A DNA stretch of 64,000 nucleotides from Incurvaria masculella. Its lineage: Eukaryota > Arthropoda > Insecta > Lepidoptera > Incurvariidae. The translations under genes were made by a program, and so were the position numbers. The stretch is taken from NCBI GenBank assembly GCA_946894095.1, contig OX335644.1:25587595-25651594 (forward strand), read 5' to 3'. Below, in pieces: positions 35,430 to 62,612 of this stretch. A model generated the notes under the pieces. The model was not told the origin of the DNA. It was given only the letters and a program-made list of their open reading frames with translations, and searched no databases. Position 1 is the stretch's first letter; every line of letters starts with the position of its first letter.

Positions 35430-36701
35430 GGTTGGGGAAAAAGTTTCTTCGCATTTTTTAAGAAAATTCAAAACATTTTTTAATATGGTTTATTTACATT
35501 CAACTAAAGTATGTAGGTACCATTTTGTTCGATAACTTTTTGCCATATTGTAGGTAGGGACATGATCCCATTGCTATAGAAATATTGGGACTTCTGATCA
35601 ATATACCGCGACAAGTGGTTTTGGCAGTCCTCTCGTGATGTTAACCTGACACTGCCTAAAGAATTCTGAAGAGACCTAAACAGGTGGAAATCTGAAGGTG
35701 CAAGGTCAGGACTATACGGCGGATGCATTAACACCTCCCAGCCAAACTCTCTTAGTTTTTGCTGAGTGGCTAAAGATGTGTGAGGTCTAGCGTTATCATG
35801 ATGAAAAACCACACCCCTTCTGTTGATTAATTCCGGCCGCTTTCTCTCAACTTCTTGCTTTAATCTCATCAGTTGTTCGCAGTAGAGTTCAGAATCGATG
35901 GTCCTGCCTGGTGGTAACAGCTCATAATGAATAATGTCCTTCCAATCCCACCACACACACAGCATCACCTTGTTGCGAGTTAACCCGGGTTTCGCCACAG
36001 TCTGTGAAGCTTGACCGGCCTTTGACCACGACCTTTTTCGCACGTTCTTGTCGTACGTGATCCACTTGTCATCACCAGTTATCAGCTTCTTCAAAAATGG
36101 TTCGGTTTCATTATGTCGTAATAAAGAATCACAAATGAGTACACGGTTCATTAGGTTTCTTTCAGTGAGCTCGTGAGGTACCCAAATATCGAGCTTTTTT
36201 GTGTACCCAGTTTTTTTCAAATGCGCCAAAACTGTTTTGTGGGCAATTCCTAGTTCTTCAGCTACGTCGTAACTACTGATATGCCGATCTTGCTCCACTT
36301 TTTCAAAAATGGCATCCATTTTATCCGTAATAGGGCGACCAGAGCGACGTGCATCTTTGACATCAAAATTTCCGGATTGAAAACGCTTAAACCAAATTTG
36401 TGCTACTCTCACAGACTAGGTCCATAAACATCGCAAATTTTTTTCGCGGCTTGCGTTGCATTTTTACCTTTTTTGTAGTAAAATTTTAAAATGTATCGAA
36501 TTTCTTCATTAGATTCACTCATTTTGACAGTACGAAAAACAAATGAGAATCATACATTTTCCTAATTTGAATTTGGAATTATGTTCTTTAAAATTTAAAC
36601 TTTCAATGATACCAAAACCAGCCAGATACAAATAGTATAGCCAAAGAGATTTTATTACAAGTTCATACATACTATAATGCGAAAAGACTTTTTCCCCGAC
36701 C
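35430..36701 (-). mobile_element. mariner-family transposon, near full length
   Basis: 1272 bp between TA dinucleotides (35428-35429 and 36702-36703), the mariner target duplication. Termini 'ggttggggaaaaagtttctt' and the inverse of '...gactttttccccgacc' form a ~24-base inverted repeat with three mismatches. Contains a single transposase frame on the minus strand. Lies 550 bases downstream of RpL32. Confidence 0.93.
35504..36522 (-). pseudogene. mariner transposase, single frameshift
   Basis: Cut-and-paste transposase of the Tc1/mariner superfamily. The C-terminal 302 codons (36412-35504) are open, with helix-turn-helix parts (IAHKTVLAHLKKTGY) and the catalytic triad TGDDKW, HHDNARPH and YSPDLAPSD. 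The last two aspartates are 34 residues apart, the D,D34D spacing of mariners. The natural start lies at 36522 (MSESNEEIRYIL...), but that frame ends at a TGA (36411-36409). A small deletion next to 'gacctagtctg' separates the first ~37 codons from the rest. The element is therefore probably inactive, though nearly complete. Confidence 0.9.
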
Positions 36702-36709
36702 TATTATTT

Positions 36710-37830
36710 TTGTAATGGGCTGTTTGTTTTCTTAAATACATTCAAAAAATAAATAAATAGAAGAAATGGGGACCTGGGTCTGTGAGTGAAGGAAGGACGG
36801 GCGAGGCGATAGGAACTCATACAGCTACAGCGTAGCGACTTTATTGAGAATGTATGTGGGAATATATGTATGTGGTGTTTCAACCATAGACCTAGCTTCT
36901 ATGGTTTCAACGGCCACTATATAAAATTTGGGAAATGATTTTTGGGTTTGAAACAAAAAAAAAAGTTTAAAAACTTTTTTCTGAATATCCTCTAATAAAA
37001 AGACTTTCCATGCAAAGTAATTAATTCATTTAGTGTAAAAAGAATGGTATGTTCCGTAAGAACGGGGAACGTTGTATGTAATTGGACATAGATGGCTTAT
37101 ATTACACCTACTGTAATGACATTAGTCTGACACTCCACGTGGGATCTAGGTTCAATGCCAAGATCTTAGCATTTTTTTTAAATTTATTTATTTATTCATA
37201 TGAAATGAAATGCATACCAACTCGACACATGCACAGAGATACAAATCTATAGCATAATGCACCACATTTTTTGTTTTGTTTTTGGTCTCTGTCCAAATGC
37301 ACCACATGCACTCAAAAATGCATTCCAACTGACACATACTGACATCTCAAAGTGAGTGACAGCTAGACTAACGAAAAGTAGTACTTTGTGACGTCAATTT
37401 ACATTACTTTGAAATTTCGTCCATATAAAATGTGTCAAAGTGACGTCACAAAGTACTACTTTGCGTTAGCATTAGTTGCGGTTACGACTATTTATATCAG
37501 CCTTAATGTTTTTGTCAAAAAGGCATTGTGCTTTTCCATAGTGTCCTACAAACTAAACATGGGGCTTCCCGAATTAGTAAGTAAACTAACTAAGCCCAAT
37601 GGGTCAGTCGCTCAGGGAATCTATTGTACAATTGTTTAGTAATCTTAGGTGGGAGTCCGGGGAATCTAATGGGAGTCCGAGGAATCGCTGTATATACAGG
37701 CGTATCTCACAATTATAGCTTTTATATAGATATATAGAATAAATATATAAATTTATTTGCTCTCTCAGCGAAGCTTCTTACCACGTTATTTTTTACAGCA
37801 TCATTTGCAGTATTTTCACTAAAATATTAA
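36710..37830. other. Intergenic, no gene seen
   Basis: No coding region recognised. Contains a palindrome at 37377-37460 and short repeat remnants. Confidence 0.5.
37377..37460. repeat. 20-bp perfect inverted repeat with TGACGTCA core
   Basis: agtagtactttgtgacgtca (37377-37396) faces tgacgtcacaaagtactact (37441-37460) with a 44-base spacer. A related single arm lies near 32907 ('agtactactttgtgacgtca'). It is probably a MITE; the CRE-like core is likely fortuitous. Confidence 0.8.
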
Positions 37831-39065: not shown

Positions 39066-39070
39066 TGTTA

Positions 39071-39221
39071 TTGGGCCGATCCCGGCGGCACTGCAATGCC
39101 GGGCCAACCCGCGACAGGAGTGGAGCAAGCCCCGAGCATCCCGTCACTTTACAAAAATCAGTTTAATATACTGGTCCTGCATTGCAGGAACTTTCAGATA
39201 TTAAGCTGAAAAGAACAGATA
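39071..39221 (-). ncRNA. U2 snRNA gene, 3' ~150 nt (separated from its 5' end)
   Basis: On the minus strand this reads 'tatctgttcttttcagctta', 'atatctgaaagttcctgca', 'aaactgatttttgtaaag' (Sm-like site), 'gcttgctccactcctgtcg', and ends 'ccgccgggatcggcccaat'. The order and most bases match metazoan U2 from about nucleotide 36 to the 3' end: stem-loops II, Sm site, III and IV. The first 28 nucleotides are at 43147-43120, beyond the retroelement. The branch-point-pairing GUAGUA region is broken, so the copy cannot give a working U2. Confidence 0.92.
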
Positions 39222-39417
39222 TAATATGTTTATTTACTAAAAAAATTCTTAAAAAACAGGTTTTGCTAAATTATAAATAGTATGGGCCCCCGAAAATACT
39301 GTTAATTTCCTAGATCTACATTTTACGATTACAAAAAAGAAAAATACATATTTAGAGTAAGATGGGGGCCCAATGAATTGAAGTAATTAATTATAAAATA
39401 TTAATTAATGCTTATGT

Positions 39418-42400
39418 CTATGTGGGTGGGTCCCTCGCGCGCCGAACTGTGGGTCCTGGGGCAGATCCCACGTCCCGGCGTCCATATTGCCGCCAGCCCG
39501 TAACATGCTCCGTATAGATGTCGCGGTTCCATCTGATCACGTCGGATACCGCCGCTTGGGCAAAGGCGCGAATGGCTCCCGGCCGCAGACCCAACCGGAG
39601 CAGCAGCGGCTCATTGACGCAGTCCCAGGAGCCCAGCGCGCCGACTAGAACAGCGTCGACGGTGACGGTATGCCCCCGGGCGCGTAGCTGCTGCGCCAGC
39701 GGCTCATACTTCTCCTTCTTGTGCTGCCGGGCCGCCATTAGCGCCTCCATCCGGTTCTCAAATGGAACCGCCACATCTACAATGAAAATTTCACCATTAG
39801 TTCGGAACACGAGATCGGGCCGGAGGGTGGAATCCAACTCGGGGATGGTCCGGTTAACAGAGGCAACTCCCGACCCTCGGGGAATAGCCTCTACCAACCG
39901 GTCCAGCACCGAGTTGTGCCTCAACTGCCACGCAGCAGAGTGCCGCGTGCAGTGATTTAGGACGTGGGGAAGCGTCTCATCCACCGAGCCACATCCCCTA
40001 CAAAAGGCACTACCATCACGACCAAATCGCGTAGCGCCCTTGAGGGGAAGACAGTTGAGTCGTGCTCGGTGGATGAAACGCCAGTCACAAAATCTAGTGT
40101 GGCGTCCAGTAGCCATAAAATGGGTGGACCGTGGAGAAGCCACGGCACACTCCATCACCTTGCCCTGGCTCGGCTTGGCCAACAGTTTCGATGCGTGGGC
40201 CAAGCGCAGCGCTAGGTGGAGGGATCTCTGGACGGCCGCACGCGCTGAAGGTGGTACAGTAACCCTTTCAATTAACCGCCCTAGGGTTGGCGCAGACACG
40301 GAGAGCTCATCCCGTTCGCGGCAGTAAGTCCATCGCAGATCAAGGTGGGAGCGCAACCGACGTGCGGCTACCCTCGCTCTCGACCAGAACGAGGTACGCT
40401 CCCGACCTCGACCCACGACAGCCTCACGGTCGCCCGTCAAGAAGCTCGCCAGGTCTGCGCCATCAGGCTGTCTCCGTAAGCCACGATGCACCGCCGCCTC
40501 GAGGGTTAAATGCGCGAGGCGAGCGACTGCATCGTCGCGGCAGGAGAGCATTCTGAATGCGTGCACGACCGTCAAGAGGTCAGACTTCTCACCCAGAGGC
40601 GTAACCGCCGCCCCTCCCATATTGTATGGCAGAACTAAGTAGTCTGCCGAAGCTCTCTGCGGGAGGTGGAGCCATCCCTTAACCGTCCGTTTTATAATTT
40701 TGTCGGCCCGGTTGAGTGGCTCCTTGGCGACGGTCGTGCCCCTGAGTAGGAAGTCCAGTCTGGATGTGATGAAGGTGTTGAGCGCGTCAATCTTTTGCCA
40801 TGGGGCTAAGAGTGAGGCACTCAACATCTCCAAATCACGGAGAAGACGCTCAACGTCCTCCTCCGGAGACCGGGAGATGCGAAACCCGGTAGGGACGCCG
40901 AGATGTTCATAGACATCCCCAGCCCCCAGCGCTTTCAACTCGACACCACCTAAGGTGAAAGTGGATGGCTGCGCCCTCTTCCCGTCGATATGAAGTGACG
41001 CACATTTCGACGGATTAAATTTGAGGCCCAGCCAGTCACCTACCCCGGTGGCAACATCTAACATGCGCTGGAGACCCACCGGAGACTCCGAAAGGATGGC
41101 CAAATCGTCAGCATACGCCAGGACGCTGAACGTGTTCCCTAACAGACTGACTCCACCACGCTGTGCCTCGACTGCTCTCAAGAGGGACTCAATGGCCAAA
41201 TTGAAAACAATCGGGGACAGCGGGCAGCCTTGCCTAACCCCAGCACCAATCGCAATCGGGTCCGTGTAACCCTCCGGCGCGCGGATGACGGTGGTGGAGT
41301 CCCTATAGAGGTCCTCCACCACCGCGATCAGATCCGTCGGAACTCCGGCGCGCGCCAGGGAACTTAATATTGTTGCGTGCGGCACGGACCCGAATGCGTT
41401 GGCCAAGTCCAGCCAGGCCACACACAGCTCCGCTCCACCGCCGGTGGCCTCCTCGATCGCAGTTTGGAGCACGAAATTATGTTCCAGGCACCCCTCGTGC
41501 TCCATGAAGCCTTTCTGCGACCGGGAGATGCGGCCGTTCTTCACTGCCCAGGAGGACAGCCGTGCCGCGATACACCTGCAGTAAAGTTTCGCCATGGTGC
41601 AGCTCAAGGCGATGGGTCTCCAATTATCGGGAGCCGCCCGATCGCCTTTCTTGTAAAGTAGAATAGTGTTGGACATTTTCCAGGCCGCGGGTATACGATG
41701 CTCGCGCCAGCAGAATTGGAAGATCCTGCTCAGCAACAGGCACCCGGGATCCATTCTCCGCAGATCAGCATAAAAGATGCTGTCTGGCCCGGGCGCCGTG
41801 TTGCCGGAGCGCCTCAATTTTTCCTGGATTTCGTCGGCCGAGATGGGGCGCATCAACTGGTCCTGCGAGTCCTCCTCTGGGGGGGTCGGGGGAGGAGGAA
41901 CCTCCCCTGGTGTAGGGCCCACCGCGAATCGCTCTTCACCTCCAAATATCGAGGTAAAATGTTCTCTCAACGTCTCCCCCGGGACCCGGCAGTGGTCCGC
42001 CGACTGCCCAGTGACATTACGAAACGCCCTTACCCGGTTTAGCCGGTAAAGGCGCTGAATGTCCCGAGCAGCACGGACCGGATCGGCGGGCGGCGTGGTG
42101 ACCGCGCGCGCCGGTCCTGTTACTGCCGTACTCCGGGGGCGACGTGAGGGAGGGATTATCTCGGCGGTGAGCTCAGTAATGATTACCTCAAATTCGGACC
42201 AATTGTTAGCGCCCTCAACTCGACCGATCCAGCGCGACTGGAATTCGCTTCCAACTCTGCTGGGAACGTCAACGGTGGCGGCCAAAGCAGGCGATCGAGC
42301 GGCTTGTGTGTCACATCCTTGTACAGGGACGGGGGGCACTCTCGATGTTGAAGCAACGGGCGAAAGCGCGCGAGAGGTGCCCCCCGTCACTGGTGGTAAC

Positions 42401-42840
42401 GCCGCGGCGGCCTCGGAGCGAGCGACAGCGGGGGGACTACGCCCCCGGCTGCCTCCCGCGCCGTTGGCCGCCGGAACGGGCGGCGCGCGGTCGGCCGAAG
42501 CAACTCGGACCCCGCGCGCCCCCCGCACCCGAGCGACTGGGGCGGCGGGGGCTGCGGCGGGGGGACGATTCGATTGCCCCCCCGACGCCTCCTCCGCCGC
42601 CGGCCGGGCAGGGCAGCGTGTTCGCGCGTGGGCTTTGCATCGCCGTCCGTCGTCCAACACCTCGCCACATTCCACACATTTAAAATTGTGGCGAGAATTA
42701 TGGGTTCCCGACAGATGGCGAGACAAGCCTTGAAAAGAGGCATACCCGGACTCCCCCGGCGGATGCCCGCATAGTGGGCATCTAATTGGGATGGGGACAG
42801 GGAAGTCGATTGTCACCACATTTTCGCCGGTCCCGGGCAT
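39418..42840 (-). CDS. Retrotransposon ORF: zinc fingers, reverse transcriptase, restriction-like endonuclease
   Basis: Single intact 1140-residue polyprotein. N-terminus: CCHH finger (C21-x2-C24-x17-H42-x4-H47) followed by a CCHC cluster (C55, C58, H71, C76), used for target DNA binding in R2/NeSL elements. A Pro/Ala-rich linker follows. Then reverse transcriptase with LLYKKGDRAAPDNWRPIALS, QKGFMEHEGCLEHN, WLDLANAFGSVPH, GVRQGCPLSPIVFNLAIESL and the catalytic YADD at about residue 576. Near 945-965 is a CCHC knuckle (CRGCGSVDETLPHVLNHC). Near 1005 comes the endonuclease core RPDLVF...IVDVAVPFE, the R/KPDxx-12-14-D/E pattern of restriction-like endonucleases. No ULP1 protease domain is recognised. 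All hallmark residues are present, so the protein may be active. Confidence 0.93.
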   Translation of the reverse strand: MPGTGENVVTIDFPVPIPIRCPLCGHPPGESGYASFQGLSRHLSGTHNSRHNFKCVECGEVLDDGRRCKAHARTRCPARPAAEEASGGQSNRPPAAAPAAPVARVRGARGVRVASADRAPPVPAANGAGGSRGRSPPAVARSEAAAALPPVTGGTSRALSPVASTSRVPPVPVQGCDTQAARSPALAATVDVPSRVGSEFQSRWIGRVEGANNWSEFEVIITELTAEIIPPSRRPRSTAVTGPARAVTTPPADPVRAARDIQRLYRLNRVRAFRNVTGQSADHCRVPGETLREHFTSIFGGEERFAVGPTPGEVPPPPTPPEEDSQDQLMRPISADEIQEKLRRSGNTAPGPDSIFYADLRRMDPGCLLLSRIFQFCWREHRIPAAWKMSNTILLYKKGDRAAPDNWRPIALSCTMAKLYCRCIAARLSSWAVKNGRISRSQKGFMEHEGCLEHNFVLQTAIEEATGGGAELCVAWLDLANAFGSVPHATILSSLARAGVPTDLIAVVEDLYRDSTTVIRAPEGYTDPIAIGAGVRQGCPLSPIVFNLAIESLLRAVEAQRGGVSLLGNTFSVLAYADDLAILSESPVGLQRMLDVATGVGDWLGLKFNPSKCASLHIDGKRAQPSTFTLGGVELKALGAGDVYEHLGVPTGFRISRSPEEDVERLLRDLEMLSASLLAPWQKIDALNTFITSRLDFLLRGTTVAKEPLNRADKIIKRTVKGWLHLPQRASADYLVLPYNMGGAAVTPLGEKSDLLTVVHAFRMLSCRDDAVARLAHLTLEAAVHRGLRRQPDGADLASFLTGDREAVVGRGRERTSFWSRARVAARRLRSHLDLRWTYCRERDELSVSAPTLGRLIERVTVPPSARAAVQRSLHLALRLAHASKLLAKPSQGKVMECAVASPRSTHFMATGRHTRFCDWRFIHRARLNCLPLKGATRFGRDGSAFCRGCGSVDETLPHVLNHCTRHSAAWQLRHNSVLDRLVEAIPRGSGVASVNRTIPELDSTLRPDLVFRTNGEIFIVDVAVPFENRMEALMAARQHKKEKYEPLAQQLRARGHTVTVDAVLVGALGSWDCVNEPLLLRLGLRPGAIRAFAQAAVSDVIRWNRDIYTEHVTGWRQYGRRDVGSAPGPTVRRARDPPT

Positions 42841-42863
42841 GCCTCTTTTCGAACATTATCTTA

Positions 42864-42917
42864 GCTGCAGAGAGACTTAATTAGCGACGAATTTTAGCTA
42901 AAAAATCTCTCTGCAGC
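42864..42917. repeat. Hairpin in the element's 5' UTR
   Basis: gctgcagagaga (42864-42875) pairs perfectly with tctctctgcagc (42906-42917) around a 30-base loop. It lies 24 bases upstream of the ORF start on the minus strand. Could be a 5' RNA structure used for processing or translation. Confidence 0.75.
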
Positions 42918-43119
42918 GACGAGTGACACACAACGCGGACAAACTACTGTCTTCGGACAACAAATAAATGGTCTACTACCCGCAAGACCGGGCAGGCCCG
43001 CCGATCCGACAGTAGTCTGTCCGGGCCCGGGAGACAACAGATAAGTGGCCTACAAATTAAATGGACGACACACTAGAAATTGTTTTACTTATCTGTCCCA
43101 AGAAAGATGCGGCTGGAAA

Positions 43120-43147
43120 GATCTTAGCCAAAAGGCCGAGAAGCGAT
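43120..43147 (-). ncRNA. U2 snRNA gene, first 28 nt
   Basis: On the minus strand it reads atcgcttctcggccttttgg then ctaagatc, the invariant 5' end of U2 (stem I and the U6-pairing region). The retroelement's 5' UTR begins immediately afterwards. DNA at higher coordinates should hold the U2 promoter; no PSE was assigned with confidence. Confidence 0.93.
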
Positions 43148-43444
43148 AACCAGAGGGAGTTTTCTGACCCTTATAAACTCTATAACAAAAATAAAATTAC
43201 CGCGATATCATAAAAGTTAAAATTTTCCCCCAGCGACATCTAGTGACCAACGCATAGTACTAAAACTACGCTCAAATGCGACGAAACGGCAGGAGGCACG
43301 CAAAAAACGATTAGGACTAGCGCATAGGTTGGTCGGGAGGGCCGTAAATAAAAAAAAAATTTTTTTAAATTGAAACCTAACTTAAAAAAAATTTTTTTTG
43401 GTTGCCAAAAATCATTGATTTTGGTTTGAATGTATCAGATACTT

Positions 43445-43659: not shown

Positions 43660-44730
43660 TAGTGACATTATAAATTATAGGTAAGTAGATAGGTAATTTG
43701 TTTCTTATGGAAAATATACCCCAACCTCGCGAACTAAAGTTTTCTGAAAGTCCTTCGTTTAAAGTTACTTTTTCTAACTTTTCAAGGCGACAACATTTAT
43801 ATGAATACATCCCCGTATAGAGCCGAATGATAAGTGTTTATTTCACAGGTTTATTGGAAATCGTACCCAAAGAGTATGCAAACGCTTATCGTACCATCTG
43901 GGACATCGATGAAAACAATGAGCACAATACAGCTGAACGCCTAGAGTTAAAAATTTGACGTGCCACCTAGCGTAAGCTGAGGAATTCATTGCGTGCGATC
44001 ACCGCACCTGTATTTGTAATGGATTTTAAGACGGTGCGGTAGATGGCGCTATTATGCGGCTGAAGGATTGTTTGAATTTTATTTTTCCGATGTGCTCTTG
44101 TTCAAATATTAGTGTAATATTTGGGCGTAATATTGCGTTCAGTTTTAAAAGAGCGTAAATGACATTACAACCAATTTCGATAGTAAAAAAAGTAAATAAA
44201 ATATGTAGATTGATGGTCTAGCTATAATTTAAAGATAACTAGTGCTTTGTGTTCTCAAATTATAAAAATAGTCATAAATTGACATACAAAAATTGTAACA
44301 CAGAACTTGATGAGCGTCAGATACTACCGTTATAGCTCCGGCATCTTGTTCCAAGATTCTATCATAGATATAATATTACTGATTCTATTAGCCCTCGTTA
44401 TAAATCGTTGTTATAAATAAACTAAAATGGTCTGAGCCCTTATTGACAGCGCCAAAGAATAAGTCAAAGCACTGCGTGACGGCGCATTAGGACGTAGCTT
44501 ACTGTAGTTTGACTACAGATTGATTAAATGAAATAAAAAAATAAAAGTATGTAATAGTACAGAATAAATAATAGAAATACTAATAGAATTTTCCAGAGCG
44601 GAAGCCGTGCTTCGCAAATTTCACAACAATGAGTATAGTATCGCTGATATTATTTTCGTAAGCACATTTAGGTTTTTTAAAGTGTGCCCATATGATCTAT
44701 AAATATTATGCCATCCGAAGTGTGATGTAA
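43660..44730. other. Intergenic, no gene seen
   Basis: No exon recognised. The part near 44130-44240 shares 'ttgcgttcagttttaaaag'-like and 'gattgatggtctagctata' words with the MITE family at 14125-14440. Confidence 0.5.
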
Positions 44731-45106
44731 GGATAGGTTAAGTTAGGGAAGGTTGGGTTAGGTTAGGTTATTCTAGGTTGGGTTAGGTTAGGTTAGGTGA
44801 GGTTAGGTTAGGTTATGTTAGGTTAGGTTGGGGTAGGCTAGGTTAGGTTAGGTGAGGTTAGGTTAGGTTAGGTTGGGATAGGTTAGGTTAGGTTAGGTTA
44901 GGTTAGGTTAGGTTAGGTTGGGGTAGGTTAGGTTAGGTTAGGATAGGTTAGGTTAGGTTAGGTTAGGTTAGGTTAGGTTTGGTTAGGTTAGGTTAGGTTA
45001 GGTTAGGTTGTGGTAGGTTAGGTTAGGTTAGGATAGGTTAGGTTAGGTTAGGTTAGGTTAGGTTAGGTTTGGTTAGGTTAGGTTTGGTTAGGTTAGGTTA
45101 GGTTAT
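44731..45106 (+). repeat. Interstitial (TTAGG)n block
   Basis: About 370 bases of TTAGG pentamers, the insect telomere unit, with variants such as ggggt, ggata and tttgg spread throughout. All in one direction (TTAGG on the plus strand). Passes directly into the GGTCAGAG satellite. Confidence 0.95.
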
Positions 45107-46690
45107 GCTGAAGGTCAGAGAGTCAGTGGGTGAGAGGGTTAGAGGTTCAGAGGGTCATAGGTTCAGAGGGTCAGATGGACAGAGGGATGGAGGGTCAGAG
45201 AGTCAGAGGTTTAGACGTTCAGAGAGTTAGAAGGTCGGAGGATCAGAGGGTCGGTGGTTTAGGGGTTCAGCGGGTTAGATGTTCAGTGGGTCAGAGGTTC
45301 AGAGGGTCAGAGGATAAAAACATCAGAGGGTCAGAGGGTTAGAGGGTCGAAGTTTCAGAGGTTCAGTAAGTTAGAGGCTTAGAGGGTCAGAGGGAAAGAG
45401 GGATGGAGGGTCAGAGGGTCAAACGTCGTAGGGTCAGAGGTTTAGACGTTCCGAGGGTTAGAGGGTCGGAGGGTCAGAGAGTCGAAGGTTCGGAGGTTCA
45501 GTGGGTCAAGTGGTCAGAGGGTCAGAGGGTCGGAAATTCAGAAGATCAGTAGGTCAGAAGGTCTGCGGGTCAGAGGGTCAGAGGGTCAAAGGATCAGACG
45601 GTCAGAGGGTCATAGGATCAGACGGTCAGAGGGTCAGAGGGTCAGAGGGCTAGAGGGTCGAAGTTTCAGAGGTTCAGTCAGTCAAAGGTTTAGAGGGTCG
45701 GAGGGAAAGAGAGAAGGAGAGTCAGACGGTCAAACGTCGTAGGGTCGGAGGGTCAGCGGGTTTAAGGTTCGGAGGTTCAGTGGGTCAGAGGATCAGTGGG
45801 TCAGAGGGTCAGAGCTTCAGAGGGTCAGGTGGTCAGAGTCAGAGTGTCGGAAATTCAGAGGATCAGTGGGTCGGAAGGTCTGCGGGTCAGGGGGTCAGAG
45901 GGTCAAAGGATCAGACGGTCAGAGGGTCAGAGAGTCAGAGGGTCAAAGGATCAGACGGTCAGAGGGTCAGAGGGTTTGAGGATCTGAGGGCATAGGGTTC
46001 AGATGGTCTGAAGATGAAACATCAGAGGGTCAGACGGCTAGAGGGTCGAAGTTTCAGAGGTTCAGTGGGTCAGAGGTTTAGAGGTTCAGAGGGAAAGAGG
46101 GAAGGAGAGTCAGAGAGTCAAACGTTGTAGGGTCGGAGGCTCAGATGGTCGAAGGTTCGTAGGTTCATTGGGTCTGAGGTTCAGTGGTTCAAATGATCAG
46201 TGGGTCAGAGGGTCTGAGCTTTAGAGGGTCAGATGGTCAGAGGGTCAGAGGGTCAGGGGAGAGGGTAGGAAGTTTAGAGGATCAGTGGGTCAGAGGGTCT
46301 GAGGGTCAGAGGGTCAGAGGGTCAAAGGGTCAGACGGTCAGAGGATCTGAGGGTCTGAGTGCATAAGGTTCAGAGGGTCAGAGGATTAAACATCAGAGGG
46401 TCAGAGGGCTAGAGGGTCGAAGTTACAGAGGTTCAGAGGGAAGGAGAGTCAGAGGGTCAAACGTTGTAGGGTCGGAGGCTCAGGGGGTCGAAGGTTCGGA
46501 GGTTCAGTGGGTCTGAGGTTCAGTGGTTCAAATGATCAGTGGGTCAGAGGGTCTGAGCTTTAGAGGGTCAGGTGGTCAGAGGGTCAGAGGGTCAGGGGAG
46601 AGGGTAGGAAGTTTAGAGGATCAGTGGGTCAGAGGGTCTGAGGGTCAGAGGGTCAGAGGGTCAAAGGGTCAGACGGTCAGAGGGTCGTAC
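45107..46690 (+). repeat. GGTCAGAG satellite with higher-order repeat
   Basis: Short units around 'gggtcagag' (8-9 bases) over 1.6 kb with many variants (gttcagagg, ggtcggagg, gatcagtgg). A higher-order period of about 339 bases is visible: the text from 46170 is repeated nearly unchanged from 46509. Open frames rich in S-E-G-Q-R are by-products. Confidence 0.95.
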
Positions 46691-46974
46691 GCAGGTACAA
46701 GGTTACATCGGTAGACCTAATACAACATGGCGGCGAGTTGTCAACACGGCTTTGACACGGCGCTCACGTAGTTCTTCTGAGTTTGGATAGATGGCGCTAC
46801 TTTTTCCTTGTATGGAGAAGATTTCTTTCAATTCTATAGAAGGGCGTATCCTTACCTTTGAAATCATTGGTCGCAACACTATTTGTTGGGGGTATCGTTT
46901 GATTTTAAAAGACCCACGATACCACCAGGGGTATCGCCAGGGGTATCGTGGGTCCGTCCTTCCCTGGACTCCTC

Positions 46975-56900: not shown

Positions 56901-59900
56901 TTTTCACTTAATCGTTTTCAGCTCACTTAGGTGCTTATTTTAAAAATGCATTCATTATGGCCAGTATATAAAAGAGTTGATTCATAGGCGCAAGCCTTGG
57001 GTTAGGGTTCAGTTGCAAACAAGAGCAATGTCATGTCTGACCGTTCACGTCGACGGTGCTCTTGATCATGTCCCGCATGGTGCGCCACCCGGCGAGGTAC
57101 TCGATCAGCCCGGCCGCGTCGCCCAGCGGTGTCACCTGTCACGACCATCTCACAATGTAATTTCATTTCTTTAAACATTTTGGTAGTTAAACTACACTAA
57201 GCTACGTCACAAACTGATGGATCCGGGGATTCTATCAACTCGAGTCTACTTATTACAATTTGAAGTTGGGCTGAAAGCTTTTTAGCCCGCTGTCACTGCG
57301 ACCTTTACAGATCTATTGTGGCTTTGAAGTTTACTTAGATGGTGCTCTACATCTTGTCTGGCATGGTCTAAATGGGTATTTTCCCTGAGATGTGGACGAG
57401 AGTAAACGTTATACCCACTTTTTTTCCTAATTCTTGTTATCAGTAAAACATTTGTTATAGTAGTAAATTCGGGAATCTAAGCAATTTTTTGGTTCATTTG
57501 GAACTTATAAATTAGAAACCAAAAATTATTTTACGATACCAATGGTCATCAGACATCTAGTTCGATTAAATAAAGCTGTTTTGAGTATAATTTTGGATTT
57601 CTGACAAGAAATATGCGCATGACCTTCTTTCCACGTTTGCATGGGGAGTTGAGCGGAAAGGCCCAACTTAAGGGCCTATAAAACCTGATTGCATTCAGTG
57701 CCATAAGGGTATATATAAGTGAAACCGTATTTTATTATTTTTAACAATAATTACAAGAACAGGCTCCCGGAGGAAGTAATTAGTGCCGCTTCAGTGAACA
57801 GCTTCAAAAACAGACTTGACACTTATACAAAAAATCATAAACTTTAGACTTTTTACAGGAATAATAAAAAAAAAACAAGTGCACCCCCAGTTACCAACTC
57901 AGATGTACACGCATCAGCTTTAAGCTGCTAGTGTATCGAGACAATAATAACAACAATAACAAAATACAAAATACAAAATACAAATACAAAATTGAGGTGT
58001 CGGGTGACAGTGTGACAAACCGCTTACAGTTTCATTTTTAAATTATAGCTAGACCATCAAACTACAAATTGACAATTTGGATTATCAAAATTCGTCGTAG
58101 CCATTTTCAAACATAATGAAATGTTGTTTTACTTACGTCGTTATCAAACTGAACTCAATTGACTCTTATCACTCCCACAACACACATATTCGAACGTCAC
58201 CGCACCTTGTAGGTATGAACGCGCAGCGTGTCGCGCCGCAGCACGCTGTTAAAGTGCGCCTGCGCGCGCTGGCAGGCGGCGTCGCGCCGCAGGTCCTCGC
58301 CGCACTTCACGAGGTACGTGCGCGCGCGCCCGTCGCTCAGCAGCGCGCCGAGCAGCACGGGCCGCCGCTGCGAGTCCACTATCACCTTCACCTGCGCGTT
58401 GGGAGGTTATAAAGGTTATGCTTTAGTTTTCGGGACGACTGTATCTCATCGTCATGGCAAAGGACCTTTCTTTGCCTACTGCCAATACGAGAACGTTGTC
58501 AAAGAAACAAAGTTGGCATTGGTCTGTCAGTCTGTGACAGATCCATTCTAAATTCGCTGCTAGGTTGCGCTAGCAAAGTTTGGAGAATTGATTGTGGTCC
58601 ATTCGCTAATCGGCGATTTGAGTGCAAACATGTCGCCAAGTGCCAACGGTACCAGCAGCGTCGAGTGTTAAGACGCCCTATTCCATTAGATCTGGACTTA
58701 GGCTAGGGTGGGGCTATTTCCGACGCGTCGGCCGGAAAGCAAAAACATGCTTGAACAGTTATTTTAATTTAATGTTTGCCGACGGTACCCGCTCATGGCG
58801 CTCTATACAGCCGACGCGTCGGATGGAAACCCTGACCTACTGAATCCAGCTAGACATAGGTCATTTCACTACTCTCGGCGCTGGCTGGTCGGCGTTTGCT
58901 GGCTTCTCCGGCCGTTTTCTGTGGCCGGCATTGCCTGATTTGATACTGCCAAACATACTGATAGATCCGCGGATTTTATGAACTCAGTAAATAAAAACCC
59001 GCAAAGAAACTTCACTCCTTTGTGGATTTTTGTAAAATCGTAAAGAAACAAACACTTAGATGTAATGCTACTGACAAACATTTTGTTGTTAGATTGCTGA
59101 GCAGTACCTCGAAACGCGCCATCTCGCTCGCACGCGTCTCCTTCGCATCGTCCATATACGAAGCGAGAGCGAGACGGACGTTCCCTGACCTGCTGGCCGA
59201 ACCTGGCGATGCTGCGCCCCTCCACGCCGAGCAGAACCTCACGACACTTACCGTCCCGCGCGCTCGTGACGCGAGAGCAGGGCGGCCAGACCGAGGCATC
59301 CTGCCGCCCCGCTCGTGTGCAAGATCTATTTACGAAGGGAGAGCGAGACGGACGTTCGCTCACCTGCTGGTCGAACCTGACGATACTGCGCCCTTCCGCG
59401 CCGAGCAGAACCTCACGACACTTACCGTCCCGCGCGCTCGTGCCGCGAGAGCAGGACGGCCAGACGGAGGCATCCTGCCGCCCCGCTCGTGTGCACGATC
59501 TATTTACGAAGGGAGAGCGAGACGGACGTTCGCTCATCTGCTGGTCGAACCTGACGATACTGCGCCCTTCCGCGCCGAGCAGAACCTCACGACACTTACC
59601 GTCCCGCGCGCTCGTGCCGCGAGAGCATGACGGCCAGACAGAGGCATCCTGCCGCCCCGCTCGTGTGCACGATCTATTTACGAAGGGAGAGCGAGACGGA
59701 CGTTCGCTCACCTGCTGGTCGAACCTGACGATACTGCGCCCTTCCGCGCCGAGCAGAACCTCACGACACTTACCGTCCCGCGCGCTCGTGCCGCGAGAGC
59801 ATGACGGCCAGACAGAGGCATCCTGCCGCCCCGCTCGTGTGCACGATCTATTTATGAAGGGAGAGCGAGACGGACGTTCGCTCACCTGCTGGTCGAACCT

Positions 59901-62612
59901 GACGATACTGCGCCCTTCCGCGCCGAGCAGAACCTCACGACACTTACCGTCCCGCGCGCTCGTGCCGCGAGAGCAGGACGGTCAGACCGAGGCATCCTGC
60001 CGCCCCGCTCGTGTGCAAGATCTATTTACGAAGGGAGAGCGAGACGGACGTTCGCTCACCTGCTGGTCGAACCTGACGATGCTGCGCCCTTCCGCGCCGA
60101 GCAGAACCTCACGACACTTACCGTCCCGCTCGCTCGTGCCGCGAGAGCATGACGGCCAGACAGAGGCATCCTGCCGCCCCGCTCGTGTGCAAGATCTATT
60201 TACGAAGGGAGAGCGAGACAGACGTTCGCTCACCTGCTGGTCGAACCTGACGATGCTGCGCCCTTCCGCGCCGAGCAGAACCTCACGACACTTACCGTCC
60301 CGCTCGCTCGTGCCGCGAGAGCATGACGGCCAGACAGAGGCATCCTGCCGCCCCGCTCGTGTGCAAGATCTATTTACGAAGGGAGAGCGAGACGGACGTT
60401 CGCTCACCTGCTGGTCGAACCTGACGATGCTGCGCCCTTCCGCGCCGAGCAGAACCTCACGACACTTACCGTCCCGCTCGCTCGTGCCGCGAGAGCATGA
60501 CGGCCAGACAGAGGCATCCTGCCGCCCCGCTCGTGTGCAAGATCTATTTACGAAGGGAGAGCGAGACGGACGTTCGCTCACCTGCTGGTCGAACCTGACG
60601 ATGCTGCGCCCTTCCGCGCCGAGCAGAACCTCACGACACTTACCGTCCCGCTCGCTCGTGCCGCGAGAGCATGACGGCCAGACAGAGGCATCCTGCCGCC
60701 CCGCTCGTGTGCAAGATCTATTTACGAAGGGAGAGCGAGACGGACGTTCGCTCACCTGCTGGTCGAACCTGACGATGCTGCGCCCTTCCGCGCCGAGCAG
60801 AACCTCACGACACTTACCGTCCCGCTCGCTCGTGCCGCGAGAGCATGACGGCCAGACAGAGGCATCCTGCCGCCCCGCTCGTGTGCAAGATCTATTTACG
60901 AAGGGAGAGCGAGACGGACGTTCGCTCACCTGCTGGTCGAACCTGACGATGCTGCGCCCCTCCACGCCGAGCAGCGCCTCTAGGCACGCGCCATCCCGCT
61001 CGCTCGCGCCGCGCGGGTACGCCGCGAGAGCGGGACAGATGTCCGCGAGCGGCAGGCTCGCGCGCGCCGGCCGCAGCCGCTCGGCCACCTCGCCGAGCAC
61101 GCGGCGCGCGGCCGCGCGGAACTCGCTCGTCGGCTCTGTCAACAGTTTACAAGACTCCCTTTAACAAGCGAGAATGTATATTATTACGGTTAAAGCCCAT
61201 TGTCGGTTAAAGTACGAAATCTTTTTTTCCTTGAAGGTAAATAAAATTTTGAAGATATATCAGTGTCGATTGCACTAATTTCGATTATATGGTAGGAAAA
61301 TAAATCCAATTTTTTCATACCAAAAATTAAAAAATATATTTAAAAGTTCAATTTGTTTTCTTGTGATCGATTCTTAATTAGTGCACTGAACAGTATAAGT
61401 GCAGAAATCGAATACAATTCAAAGAAAACATAATTTCGGGCTTTAACCACCATCGGACTTTAAGGTCGGCCCGTAAGCACCTGAAAATTTAGCCTCCCAT
61501 ACAAACGTAGTTTACTAATCATTTGAAAACCACTGTTCCAATTTACTTGATTTTTGGTATCTAATATTAAGCTACAAATATCTGTGTCTGCATGCCTTTG
61601 TTTTTTCGGTTAATGTATTCTGGCTCAAACCACAGAGAAAACAAAATTCGTATGAAGATTTTCTTTTTGCTTTCATTTCATTCGGTTTGGATTTTTCAAG
61701 AAAACAAAAGTATGCAGACACAGATATTTGTTACCTGATATTAGATATTAAACATCAATTTAATTGGAATAGCGGTTTCCAAAAGATTAGTAAACTACGT
61801 TTGTATGGGGAGCATTGTTTACGGGCCGTTCTTAACCGTAATATTCATACAGAGTCAATTTCTTAAGTGTGCCTTCATGGCCATATCCGAACTATAAGAT
61901 ATAGCGAAAAACGCTAGTGGGGCAGATTTCCATAAAATCTAAAACTATGTTTTTTCTAGCTCGGAATCGAGCTAGTAAATTTTGATATTTATTTATTTTT
62001 AGATAGAGGTGCCTCGTTTGACCGTGGGGTCTATTAGAACCATACTAGTTTGCTTCGACCGACTTTAACCCAAGAGTTGTTGTGAGACAAAATACTTACT
62101 AGTGGTTCTCTGAGCTGACGACCTCGCGAGTCTGCCTTTGCATACGTCTAAACTGAATAAATGTTCACCGCGCAAATTTAAACAAAATCTAGTATTTGTC
62201 TCACTTGGTAATTACCGAAAACTTTAGGTCTTGTGACATAACAAAAGTTTTGTCACATTTTGACCATTCCCAAAAACTGAATGGACAAAAAAATCCATAT
62301 AATTATCGAACCTGCTCACAAAATGTCACAAGAATCGGTTGAGAAATGCGACCTGTAGAGGAGAACAGGCGGACATACGAAAGCATTTTGCCCAATCTGA
62401 AACGGAGACTTTTCCTTCGGTCAAAAATAGTGATCTAGTTTTCTACAGATTTTCGCTTTGTTGCGGTGCGGTCGTGCGGCTGCACTCACGGTAGTCCCGC
62501 ACGGCGAGCAGCGCGGTCCGCTGCGGCTCCAGCATCCGGTAGGCGACGCCGCGCGCCGGCTCGCTCCCGTCGCGCTGCAACTCCTCGCACAGCGCGCGCC
62601 ACCTCGCCTCGT
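47914..62612 (-). CDS. DNA-PKcs (PRKDC) 3' part: PI3K-like kinase and FATC, partial
   Basis: Catalytic subunit of DNA-dependent protein kinase, acting with Ku in nuclear non-homologous end joining. Ten minus-strand exons (62612-62490, 61135-60930, 58391-58206, 57135-57042, 56409-56295, 55797-55694, 54939-54769, 51974-51859, 49726-49562, 47991-47914) join to about 452 codons. Landmarks in order: DICPALAAY, VKVIVDSQRRPV, the ATP-lysine motif YLVKCGEDLRRD, HTYK, SHWLLGAGDRHLENALVE (catalytic loop), CAVDWGYALD (DFG replaced by DWG), LTRQLLAVN, MKRKLSGED and the FATC end AGWEPWL-stop. Human DNA-PKcs has EGWEPWM. The N-terminal thousands of residues lie past the window. One ~30-residue stretch between the last kinase exons has no counterpart here; a small exon may be missed. 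Two exons are followed by tandem arrays copied from their own 3' ends. Confidence 0.9.
48555..49561 (-). repeat. 127-bp tandem array, seven units, copied from exon i end and its donor
   Basis: The donor landmark (inverse cacctgctcct/ctgtacctgctcc) recurs at 49561, 49434, 49307, 49180, 49053, 48926, 48799 and 48672, exactly 127 bases apart. Each unit is about 106 bases homologous to the exon, carrying a shared 7-base deletion relative to it, plus ~21 bases of intron. Units are almost identical to one another. Partial units remain near 48555-48671 and 48055-48130. Open frames on both strands are by-products. Confidence 0.95.
49562..49726 (-). CDS. PRKDC exon i
   Basis: Acceptor GGTTCCAG|TT, donor CAG|GTACAG, 55 codons, phase 0. 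Encodes LERMKRKLSGEDLSFHSTLA, LDTSTQQDAGFFRTVLLE and AERRTLYSVEEQ, matching human YAKRKLAG...AFRDYVAV...LSEETQ. Its 3' end and donor seeded the 127-bp array in the next intron. Confidence 0.92.
49952..50501 (-). mobile_element. TTAA-ended element, copy 7
   Basis: 550 bp, complete termini (TTAAGGTGGCCCAACCCGC ... GGGTTGGGCCACCTTAA), opposite orientation to copies 1, 2 and 5. Within PRKDC intron. Confidence 0.87.
50600..51590 (-). mobile_element. 5'-truncated CR1/L2-like LINE, 262-codon frame
   Basis: The minus-strand frame 51581-50793 holds the RT thumb and C-terminus: [83 protein letters not shown] and LPEEIISASSVNVFKNKL. The YADD part is missing. 3' UTR includes 'gcactagcagcattatgct'. In sense with PRKDC. 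Confidence 0.88.
51640..51735. repeat. GT-rich microsatellite
   Basis: Runs of gagggtgag and gtgtgtgtgt over about 95 bases, 120 bases from PRKDC exon h. Confidence 0.9.
51859..51974 (-). CDS. PRKDC exon h
   Basis: Acceptor GACTCAG|GG; donor AAG|GTCGCT, a weak match. Encodes LERRMERAVAELRAARRPLH then ALAFRWDSDADLPVK, equivalent to human GLMYSIMVHALRAFR...VFVKEPSFDW. In phase with both neighbours. Confidence 0.85.
52878..53417 (-). mobile_element. TTAA-ended element, copy 8
   Basis: 540 bp, left end slightly mutated (ctaaaggtggcccaacccg), right end 'gggttgggacaccttaa'. Very similar to copy 7, suggesting the two are close relatives. Confidence 0.85.
53598..53945 (+). CDS. Unrecognised 115-codon open frame inside PRKDC intron (antisense)
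   Basis: Begins MKGDLSASWMQATNDFIR and ends TQSLHPWKGDNE, stop at 53943-53945. Composition looks protein-like, with a Cys/His cluster (HENVCHNPRCNHMQGKG) that could be a small metal-binding or transposon-derived motif. I recognise no family. It is directly followed by five AACCT pentamers (53946-53971). It could be a domesticated or decayed mobile-element fragment. Confidence 0.3.
   Translation: MKGDLSASWMQATNDFIRNSNGDGKMHITKNRVSRPNMATGETSPDRRNQRFELRHHENVCHNPRCNHMQGKGEFPKIIGKYCLETANKFLALYDWYNITPTSTQSLHPWKGDNE
53946..53971 (-). repeat. Five telomere-type pentamers
   Basis: 'ctaacctaacctaacctaac' is TTAGG in reverse orientation, immediately after the stop of the preceding open frame. A short second telomere-like tract in the window. 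Confidence 0.85.
54112..54150. repeat. Perfect 12-bp stem-loop
   Basis: agacaacactgg (54112-54123) pairs with ccagtgttgtct (54139-54150) around a 15-base loop. In a PRKDC intron; role unknown. Confidence 0.8.
54769..54939 (-). CDS. PRKDC exon g (catalytic and metal-binding loops)
   Basis: Acceptor TCGGGCAG|GT, donor GTCG|GTGAGC. Encodes AGDRHLENALVEGRGG (catalytic D and N present), CAVDWGYALD (metal-binding D kept, F changed to W) and ELQPARLTRQLLAVNLNARV (matches human PFRLTRQFINLM). Strong PIKK signature. Confidence 0.95.
54985..55610 (+). mobile_element. Two joined LINE 3' fragments
   Basis: First a piece of the CR1/L2-like family (FWNKLPEEVIRSETLNAF). Then from ~55085 a different LINE C-terminus (STRNREKMHKF, SRSIIYRVGKQWNELPSEV, PPNYDLGSFKRGVKKHLAGR). 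Finally, at 55500-55610, the first family's 3' UTR (cttcaagctgctagtgata). Begins about 45 bases from the PRKDC exon g acceptor. Confidence 0.7.
55694..55797 (-). CDS. PRKDC exon f
   Basis: Acceptor AATCTCAG|AT, donor CTCG|GTACGT. Encodes SAIEASCASVEQFIKAKAAF then MTVSHWLLG, aligning with human HALICISHWILG immediately before the catalytic loop. Confidence 0.88.
56295..56409 (-). CDS. PRKDC exon e
   Basis: Encodes GLLSSVNRPSDRDIPRTPRS, then KLLSLHRELVAKSPPGAL. Donor AG|GTCTGC. The only usable acceptor is TACAAAG|GG with a distant T-run, so the 5' edge is less certain. Likely the insert before the catalytic loop. Confidence 0.7.
56508..56830 (-). repeat. tRNA-derived SINE, minus orientation
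   Basis: Body words 'gaattcggtaccatgctag' and 'cattgctgcttcgaccatc' lead to a partial tRNA-like head at 56800-56830 (plus text 'aacggggcggggatttgaa'). Head truncated. Confidence 0.7.
57042..57135 (-). CDS. PRKDC exon d
   Basis: Acceptor GTGACAG|GT. Encodes TPLGDAAGLIEYLAGWRTMR, then DMIKSTVDVN, matching the human LGLIEWLENTVTLKDLL segment. The donor is uncertain: AACG|GTCAGA (57041) keeps the frame with exon e, whereas GAC|GTGAAC (57048) does not. Confidence 0.8.
57500..57671 (+). mobile_element. TTAA-ended element, right-end fragment
   Basis: Keeps only the last ~170 bases of the family (aattagaaaccaaaaattat ... ggcccaacttaa). Diverged. Confidence 0.65.
57755..57970 (+). repeat. CR1/L2-like LINE 3' end fragment
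   Basis: Encodes only [24 protein letters not shown] residues, then the shared 3' UTR and an AAT/CAA-rich tail. Nearly identical to the end of the 16475-17010 copy. Confidence 0.8.
58206..58391 (-). CDS. PRKDC exon c (ATP-binding lysine)
   Basis: Acceptor CGCGCAG|GT, donor AAG|GTGCGG, 62 codons, phase 0 both sides. Encodes VKVIVDSQRRPVLLGALLSD, then RTYLVKCGEDLRRDAACQRA and VLRRDTLRVHTYK. K of LVKCGED corresponds to the invariant lysine of PIKK kinases. Confidence 0.93.
59140..60929 (-). repeat. 174-bp tandem array, ten units, copied from exon b end and its donor
   Basis: The motif tgctggtcgaacctgacgat (inverse of the exon end) recurs every 174 bases without indels: landmarks at 60925, 60751, 60577, 60403, 60229, 60055, 59881, 59707, 59533, 59359 and 59185. 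Each unit holds an exon-like 3' part (GRSIVRFDQQ), its 5' splice site (CAG|GTGAGC; ATGAGC in the unit at 59533), and ~74 bases of intron. Since 174 is a multiple of three and stop-free, both strands show long frames (651 codons on plus), which I regard as by-products. Confidence 0.95.
60930..61135 (-). CDS. PRKDC exon b (N-lobe start)
   Basis: Acceptor GTTGACAG|AG, donor CAG|GTGAGC. Encodes PTSEFRAAARRVLGEVAERL, LADICPALAAYPRG and GVEGRSIVRFDQQ, matching the human IDLCPW...RIAGFDERV region. Its last ~100 bases plus the donor seeded the 174-bp array in the following intron, which stays in frame. Confidence 0.88.
61458..61850. repeat. Palindromic MITE, copy 2
   Basis: Starts 'ttaaggtcggcccgtaagc' and ends 'tttacgggccgttcttaa', inverted termini of ~18 bases. 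Inner segments also pair ('acgtagtttactaatcatt' with 'gattagtaaactacgt'). Same family as 34983-35360. Confidence 0.85.
61851..62489. other. PRKDC intron between exons a and b, remaining part
   Basis: No exon or repeat recognised in these ~640 bases. Confidence 0.5.
62490..62612 (-). CDS. PRKDC exon a (upstream of kinase core)
   Basis: Acceptor ATTCGCAG|AC at 62613, donor TACC|GTGAGT at 62489. Encodes EARWRALCEELQRDGSEPAR, then GVAYRMLEPQRTALLAVRDY. Assigned by in-frame joining (phase 1) to the next exon, not by a recognised motif. A LINE tail lies directly upstream of its acceptor. Confidence 0.75.

Follow-up and report, generated by a model that had tools for sequence, protein, structure and literature searches.

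The window analysed here, a stretch of 64,000 nucleotides from Incurvaria masculella, contains a U2 snRNA gene split by a retrotransposon. All of the features described below lie on the minus strand, where the order is U2 nt 1-28 (43147-43120), the retrotransposon, and then the rest of U2. The 5′ part was recognized by direct reading and by a sub-threshold Rfam U2 match (43147-43059, 29.8 bits); the 3′ part gives a Rfam U2 match of 122.6 bits that ends at 39066 (39263-39066), the initial ∼40 positions of which are element sequence and not U2. The U2 letters proper run from 39221 to 39066, that is, from about nt 38 to the 3′ end, and recur identically in intact U2 genes. These two parts bear out the original prediction that an element splits U2 on this strand. 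However, the resumption of U2, which had been placed at about nt 36, is corrected to about nt 38-40 (TATCTG or TCTG). The host U2, GATCAAAGTGTAGTATCTG in five intact genes, has one extra A relative to the Rfam consensus.

Is this a real U2 gene or a chance resemblance? The 120 bp 5′ of U2 nt 1 (43148-43267) reach a mean alignment score of 77.6 against five promoters taken from intact U2 genes of the same genome (at least five exist, this being a lower bound from a search with the first 30 nt of U2), and the maximum in 100 shuffles is 6.2. Because the upstream region matches these five promoters, the window locus was a genuine U2 gene, and its flanks are not due to chance. In addition, over 162 bp the downstream U2 portion shares 99.4% identity with a second locus, C8.

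Between the two U2 parts is an intact ORF of 1140 aa (39418-42840, stop included). Its translation contains a pair of zinc-finger-like motifs at the N-terminal end (residues 21-47 and 55-76; 42613-42780), an RVT_1 reverse transcriptase (RT) domain (residues 398-630; 40951-41649; Pfam E 8.6e-29) with YADD at 41115-41104, a CCHC motif (residues 947-964; 39949-40002), and a restriction-like endonuclease (RLE) region, RPDL...VDV (about residues 1007-1045; 39706-39822). The CCHC motif and the PD..D region can be aligned with solved R2 proteins, and the N-terminal C/H motifs align weakly with the R2 N-terminus. The protein had been described as a 1140-codon ORF with zinc fingers, a YADD RT, and an RLE, and this description stands, with the N-terminal fingers identified by motif only, as no Pfam zinc-finger match in the ORF exceeds the cut-off. 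Nor does Pfam match Exo_endo_phos in this ORF, the RLE region being present instead. Values of dN/dS are 0.14-0.23 in the seven ORF pairs involving C2 or C18, and therefore the ORF has been under selection.

The 3′ UTR (39222-39417) ends in the conserved AATAAACATATTA, which 19 of 24 clear 3′ ends carry exactly and the other five with 1-2 differences, and an AATAAA (39234-39229) stands seven bases 5′ of the ...CATATTA terminus. On the other side, the remaining 5′ UTR (42841-43116) was delimited by its match to sister copies. It is preceded, at the junction with U2, by TTT (43117-43119), where the sister copies (L002-L006) have 220 nt, namely U2 nt 29-31 plus 217 nt. Since these 217 nt of 5′ UTR are present in five near-identical sister copies, the window copy is not full length, contrary to what had been proposed.

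With regard to classification, the element is best read from its sequence as a new Utopia family, Utopia being a group of RLE non-LTR retrotransposons that target U2 snRNA genes (Kojima & Jurka 2015, PMC4640811). As in Utopia, the target is U2, the orientation is that of U2, and the downstream U2 begins at nt 39 in the usual numbering; likewise, a single ORF combines N-terminal zinc fingers, a central RT, a C-terminal zinc finger, and an RLE (PMC4640811). Absence of a Myb domain is a Utopia criterion in PMC13188248, and none occurs among the Pfam matches of the ORF up to E 5. In the RT tree, which has no rows labeled Utopia or NeSL, the element is inside a starred set of 12 rows (96/95) and apart from the three R2 rows (94/81, slightly below the starred level). 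Hosts of the RT rows include Pelodiscus sinensis, Camponotus floridanus, Dendroctonus ponderosae, and Ladona fulva, which also appear in the Utopia host table, as does the butterfly Heliconius (PMC4640811). The U2 site, the domain order, the lack of Myb, and the separation from R2 all back the earlier assignment to this group.

Target choice is loose. Of 23 distinct clear 3′ ends, five adjoin U2 (the window and four others), and the remaining 18 are elsewhere, so that a search of the genome does return further copies at U2 but does not sustain the view that insertion is strictly U2-specific. The original prediction held that unrelated insertion sites would reduce the U2 flanks to chance or an assembly join; most ends are indeed away from U2, but the promoter score shows that the window flanks are not chance. 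A resemblance of the off-target sites to U2 was considered and rejected: positions 4-9 after ...CATATTA match U2 in just 2 to 8 of the 18 non-U2 ends. Positions 1-3 match TAT in 14, 15, and 13 of these 18, bases that are possibly the element's own. A fixed duplication length was discarded as well (∼147 bp at C22, about 95 bp by eye at C6, and none recognized at C20 or C18). Loose targeting is also a trait of reptile and some ant Utopia families, whereas arthropod families were reported without target duplication, in contrast to the long duplications found here at some off-U2 sites (PMC4640811).

The 5′ ends of the copies are more informative about how the element might be expressed. A leader consisting of the start of U2 is present on 6/7 of the element 5′ ends found, the seventh (old, 72%) having no recognizable one. 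In all six 5′-complete copies the leader ends at U2 nt 31, and this switch point is also that of a 92%-identical old copy; the same arrangement, U2 to nt 31 followed by the element, is thus common to copies inside and outside U2. In three of the six, the DNA flanking the 3′ side is not U2, and the leaders of these three start at U2 nt 1 to 3. At C22, a duplication of 147/149 bp (96.6% identity) lies on either side of the insert, U2(3-31) plus the element. At C20, which is in a repeat, the flanks match a C7 locus devoid of U2, both up to the junction (97.8% over 1425 bp) and after it (94.9% over 602 columns). Because of this bracketing duplication and this flank match, the leader is part of the inserted copy. 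Neither a duplication nor a matching empty locus was recognized for C18.

Upstream of the leader, the U2 promoter scores 89.8 at C8, compared with 77.6 in the window, and the three off-U2 copies do not have it (scores 3.2, 4.6, and 4.2). The upstream region of C18 has a faint promoter likeness (z 3.1; score 4.6 versus a shuffle maximum of 4.9), and the likeness at the U2-inserted C2 copy is weak (8.2 versus a shuffle maximum of 4.8). No likeness was found at two U2-flanked copies that are truncated, those at C11 and C2:4.6 Mb (0.9 and 1.7). These low values count against the model given below, as do the seventh 5′ end, the small number of off-U2 copies, and the lack of a recognized duplication or empty locus at C18.

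The leader on copies outside U2 suggests transcription from the U2 promoter, by analogy with Drosophila R1, copies of which likewise carry 28S tags. The earlier proposal that this promoter could drive the element is backed, indirectly, by the three off-U2 copies starting at U2 nt 1-3. Overall, we think it likely that this is a young Utopia family for which the host U2 snRNA gene is both landing site and promoter. The snRNA promoter upstream would direct RNA polymerase II to begin at U2 +1, and the product would be an RNA composed of U2 nt 1-31 and the element, the end of which is perhaps aided by the AATAAA. The element protein would then nick U2, or another site, and copy the RNA to its 5′ end. 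When the target is U2, the cDNA end with U2 1-31 could anneal to the upstream U2 stub, and each new insertion would thereby regain promoter and leader. The nucleotides in between would be lost, and 5′-complete U2 insertions do lack 6-8 nt of U2, which presumably include part of the branch-site-pairing sequence. Copies landing outside U2 would keep the leader as a tag, without the promoter.

Could a single capture instead have built the leader permanently into the 5′ UTR, transcription being driven by an internal promoter with its start close to the first leader base, and U2 sites being matched by homology only? The constant switch at nt 31 in the six 5′-complete copies, and also in the 92%-identical old copy, would fit, as would the intact, near-identical copies outside U2, but an internal promoter need not coincide with the expected U2 transcription start, which is where the off-U2 copies begin, and the U2 promoter is kept at the U2-inserted copies C4 and C8; we regard this alternative as unlikely. 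A jump of the RT onto mature U2 snRNA as cDNA synthesis finishes, comparable to the snRNA chimeras known for mammalian LINEs, is a highly improbable source of the leader, because independent jumps would differ in length or include more U2, whereas the switch is at nt 31 in 6/6 copies and is common to the U2-inserted ones. As for a misassembly, to which near-identical repeats are prone, or mere chance, the flanks differ among different large contigs, and the 147-bp duplication, the matching U2 promoter, and the matching U2 3′ part leave these a negligible probability.

If the U2 gene does act as landing site and promoter, insertions into U2 would each regain the promoter and copies elsewhere would lose it, so that U2 targeting would be favored despite the majority of insertions falling outside U2. 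Against this model, the off-U2 copy at C20 has an intact ORF and is 99.9% identical to the window copy, and the absence of the U2 promoter is thus not yet visible there as decay. Copies outside U2 would also be natural maps of the 5′ end of the mobile RNA, and 3/3 indicate U2 nt 1-3. The main text of PMC4640811 is silent on how a retrotransposon residing in a Pol II snRNA gene of low copy number is expressed, and the word "promoter" is absent from it; the consulted text does not describe a U2 leader on Utopia copies outside U2. We do not claim that the use of the U2 promoter by Utopia is unpublished. The 6-8 nt loss at 5′-complete U2 insertions is a further feature seen here that contrasts with Utopia.

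Among other systems, R1 of the melanogaster type offers a parallel for the leader: between 6 and 27 nt of the target upstream are included in its full-length transcripts, copies located away from the target bear this tag, and a small deletion of target DNA accompanies full-length insertions (Stage & Eickbush 2009, PMC2718515). The elements themselves differ, R1 being of another clade, with a 28S rDNA target and an apurinic-type endonuclease (PMC4640811), and its tag comes from within 28S, whereas the present one corresponds to the beginning of a Pol II snRNA gene. R2 shares the protein plan except for Myb and provides the closest solved structures, although R2 inserts in 28S rDNA and the window flanks are U2. 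Moreover, R2 is co-transcribed with 28S and freed by a self-cleaving ribozyme (PMC12192640), while here the leader is retained. No Rfam ribozyme matches L002 at E<=5, and an HDV-like ribozyme was rejected after the initial 480 nt had been scanned with a descriptor (0 start sites versus 0-2 in 30 mononucleotide shuffles), a crude scan that a large R2-type fold could escape. Finally, Keno, of the Tx1 clade, also targets U2 and shares its U2 3′ flank with our element, but its endonuclease is apurinic-like instead of restriction-like (PMC4640811).

Two features of the leader RNA deserve mention. The U2 leader and the first 31 element nt can form a hairpin of -19.1 kcal/mol (z -3.77 over the 62 nt, or -4.65 when trimmed to 50 nt), and with the leader fixed, shuffled element parts did as well in 5/1000 cases. 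This hairpin is not claimed, as it was equalled by 133/2000 random window 31-mers and 36/298 element 31-mers, and it is weaker in the old copy and absent in the window copy. If the U2 promoter is used, the element RNA would open with the U2 5′ stem-loop. It is very doubtful, on these sequence features, that the RNA would pose as a U2 precursor, capped, Sm-bound, and returned to the nucleus like an snRNP. Shortly 3′ of the leader, TTGATTTTTTGTTA resembles the Sm-site region of the host U2, CTGATTTTTGTAAA; it is lost from the window copy and identical in the 92%-identical old one.

The main result concerns what heads the element rather than where it sits, although the locus itself has to be described first. 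The U2 gene of the window is indeed split by a retrotransposon, as the original prediction had it: on the minus strand, U2 nt 1-28 (43147-43120) are followed by TTT and then by the element, after which U2 runs on to its 3' end. The 28 nt of the 5' part stand; the 3' part resumes at about nt 38-40, not at about nt 36. The 120 bp upstream score a mean of 77.6 against the promoters of five intact U2 genes (shuffled sequence, at most 6.2), so the element split what had been a normal U2 gene.

As for the element, the predicted 1140-codon frame with reverse transcriptase and endonuclease holds. The 1140-aa ORF is intact and carries an RVT_1 domain, and the closest solved structures are R2 proteins, with which it aligns across the CCHC and endonuclease regions; Pfam gave no Myb match up to E 5. 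Because the top identity among the 120 of 344 relatives listed is 48%, none of these is a close relative. The comparison with R2 proposed earlier comes from a 48-row reverse transcriptase tree that combines 44 of the 164 fetched proteins with three R2 sequences and the window element; several of its outgroup rows have long branches, and no row is named Utopia or NeSL. It separates the element from R2 (94/81, just below the program's starred level) and places it in a starred set of 12 rows of turtle, nematode, scorpion, beetle and environmental proteins (96/95), outside an 11-row set in which Arctia and Parnassius, both lepidopterans, are joined by Athalia and by wasps, bees and ants. Most likely the element represents a new family within the known Utopia group, for which insertion into U2 as such is expected.

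How many copies does the host carry? A protein search of the assembly (552 Mb in 31 contigs) returned five intact ORFs with 99-100% identity (contigs C20, C8, C2 and C18, and C4, which holds the window), together with broken and older copies. The size and contig number of the assembly, taken with the TTAGG-type repeats of the window, suggest a moth or butterfly host. At the DNA level, the principal aligned segments of C20, C8, C2, C18 and C22 share 98.4-99.9% identity with the window. For the seven ORF pairs that include C2 or C18, dN/dS is 0.14-0.23; the remaining three pairs differ at only 2 to 6 sites. Contrary to what had been supposed, the window copy is not full-length: it lacks U2 nt 29-31 and 217 nt of the element's 5' UTR, all of which the others have. 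A cluster of broken, nested, older copies lies at C8:21.29-21.34 Mb (L010, L011, L018); promoter-like sequence and the U2 leader head one of them.

Searching with the 3' end yielded 26 matches. L040 and L042, whose 3' ends are unclear, and L044, which duplicates L034, were set aside, leaving 23. Further copies at U2 do exist: with the window copy on C4, five ends adjoin U2, the others being C8, C11, C2:6.3 Mb and, as an old copy, C2:4.6 Mb; 18 do not. Target choice is loose here, as PMC4640811 reports for reptile and some ant Utopia families.

The observation worth following is the U2 leader on copies outside U2. A search with the element 5' end including this leader gave 12 matches: six 5'-complete copies, the five intact U2 genes (C20, C17, two on C16, and C7; Rfam 177-180 bits) and an old relic of 72% identity, which aligns only from query base 49 onward and in which no leader was recognised within 4 substitutions. 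All six 5'-complete copies carry U2 up to nt 31 (GATCAAA), then TACATG; three are at U2 loci and three are not. At the U2 loci, C8:21319 has U2 on both sides, C2:6321 has U2 downstream and a weak promoter likeness (8.2; shuffle maximum 4.8), and C8:21328, broken and 92% identical, has a U2-like promoter directly upstream (17.0), no U2 being found downstream. Outside U2, the C22 insert starts at U2 nt 3 between duplicated flanks of 147/149 bp (96.6%). The C20 insert, which starts at U2 nt 2 or 3, lies within a repeat; as far as the junction, both of its flanks match a C7 locus that lacks U2 and carries a separate, truncated element copy. The C18 insert starts at U2 nt 1, with non-U2 DNA downstream and no target duplication found. 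None of these three copies has the U2 promoter (3.2, 4.2 and 4.6; shuffle maxima 4.9, 5.6 and 4.9). The C22 duplication and the C20 flanks place the leader inside the inserted DNA at both loci, its start agreeing with that of U2. The complete C20 copy (L046) and the truncated C7 copy (L047) share one insertion point in one and the same repeat, and seem to have inserted separately.

Judged from these alignments, a unit of U2 to nt 31 plus element exists in and out of U2, its leader beginning at nt 1-3. Such a unit probably arises by transcription of the element from the U2 promoter, with reverse transcription running to the 5' end of its RNA; AATAAA, seven bases before ...CATATTA, possibly helps to form the 3' end of that RNA. 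The leading alternative, that the leader was captured and transcription starts from an internal promoter, seems rather unlikely. The upstream junction is probably closed by homology guidance, the cDNA end bearing the leader annealing to the upstream U2 stub. This would resemble Drosophila R1, where, according to PMC2718515, full-length copies with a leader give precise small deletions and truncated copies do not. Here, U2 is kept to nt 31 in the 5'-complete copies that lie in it and starts again at nt 38-40; the window copy has 28 U2 nt plus TTT. For the truncated C11 copy the end of the retained U2 can be placed only within nt 33 to 38, as U2 and the element share GTAGT at this point. An Sm-site-like stretch of the element is a weak lead, and so is a leader hairpin, which was not exceptional when compared with random sequence from the window.

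The window holds other features. At 44730-46686, about 1.6 kb from the U2 gene and inside a chromosome-size contig, insect-type telomere repeats (AGGTT, i.e., TTAGG) form an interstitial array of 376 bp with 85% matches; a degenerate G-rich 8-mer (GGTCAGAG) follows directly and extends over about 1.6 kb. The motif AGATGKCGCT occurs three times (43232-43241, 44041-44050 and 46789-46798; 0.17 expected), one of these lying in the promoter region of U2; similar letters occur in the promoters of intact U2 genes. A long perfect-looking hairpin (37362-37476) matches several microRNA families, from plants as well as animals, at scores below threshold; it is probably a small inverted-repeat transposon. 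A 302-aa open frame (35504-36412) was recognised by eye as resembling a mariner-type transposase, and a 174-bp tandem repeat (59157-61013; 10.7 copies, 97% alike) has long open frames on both strands.
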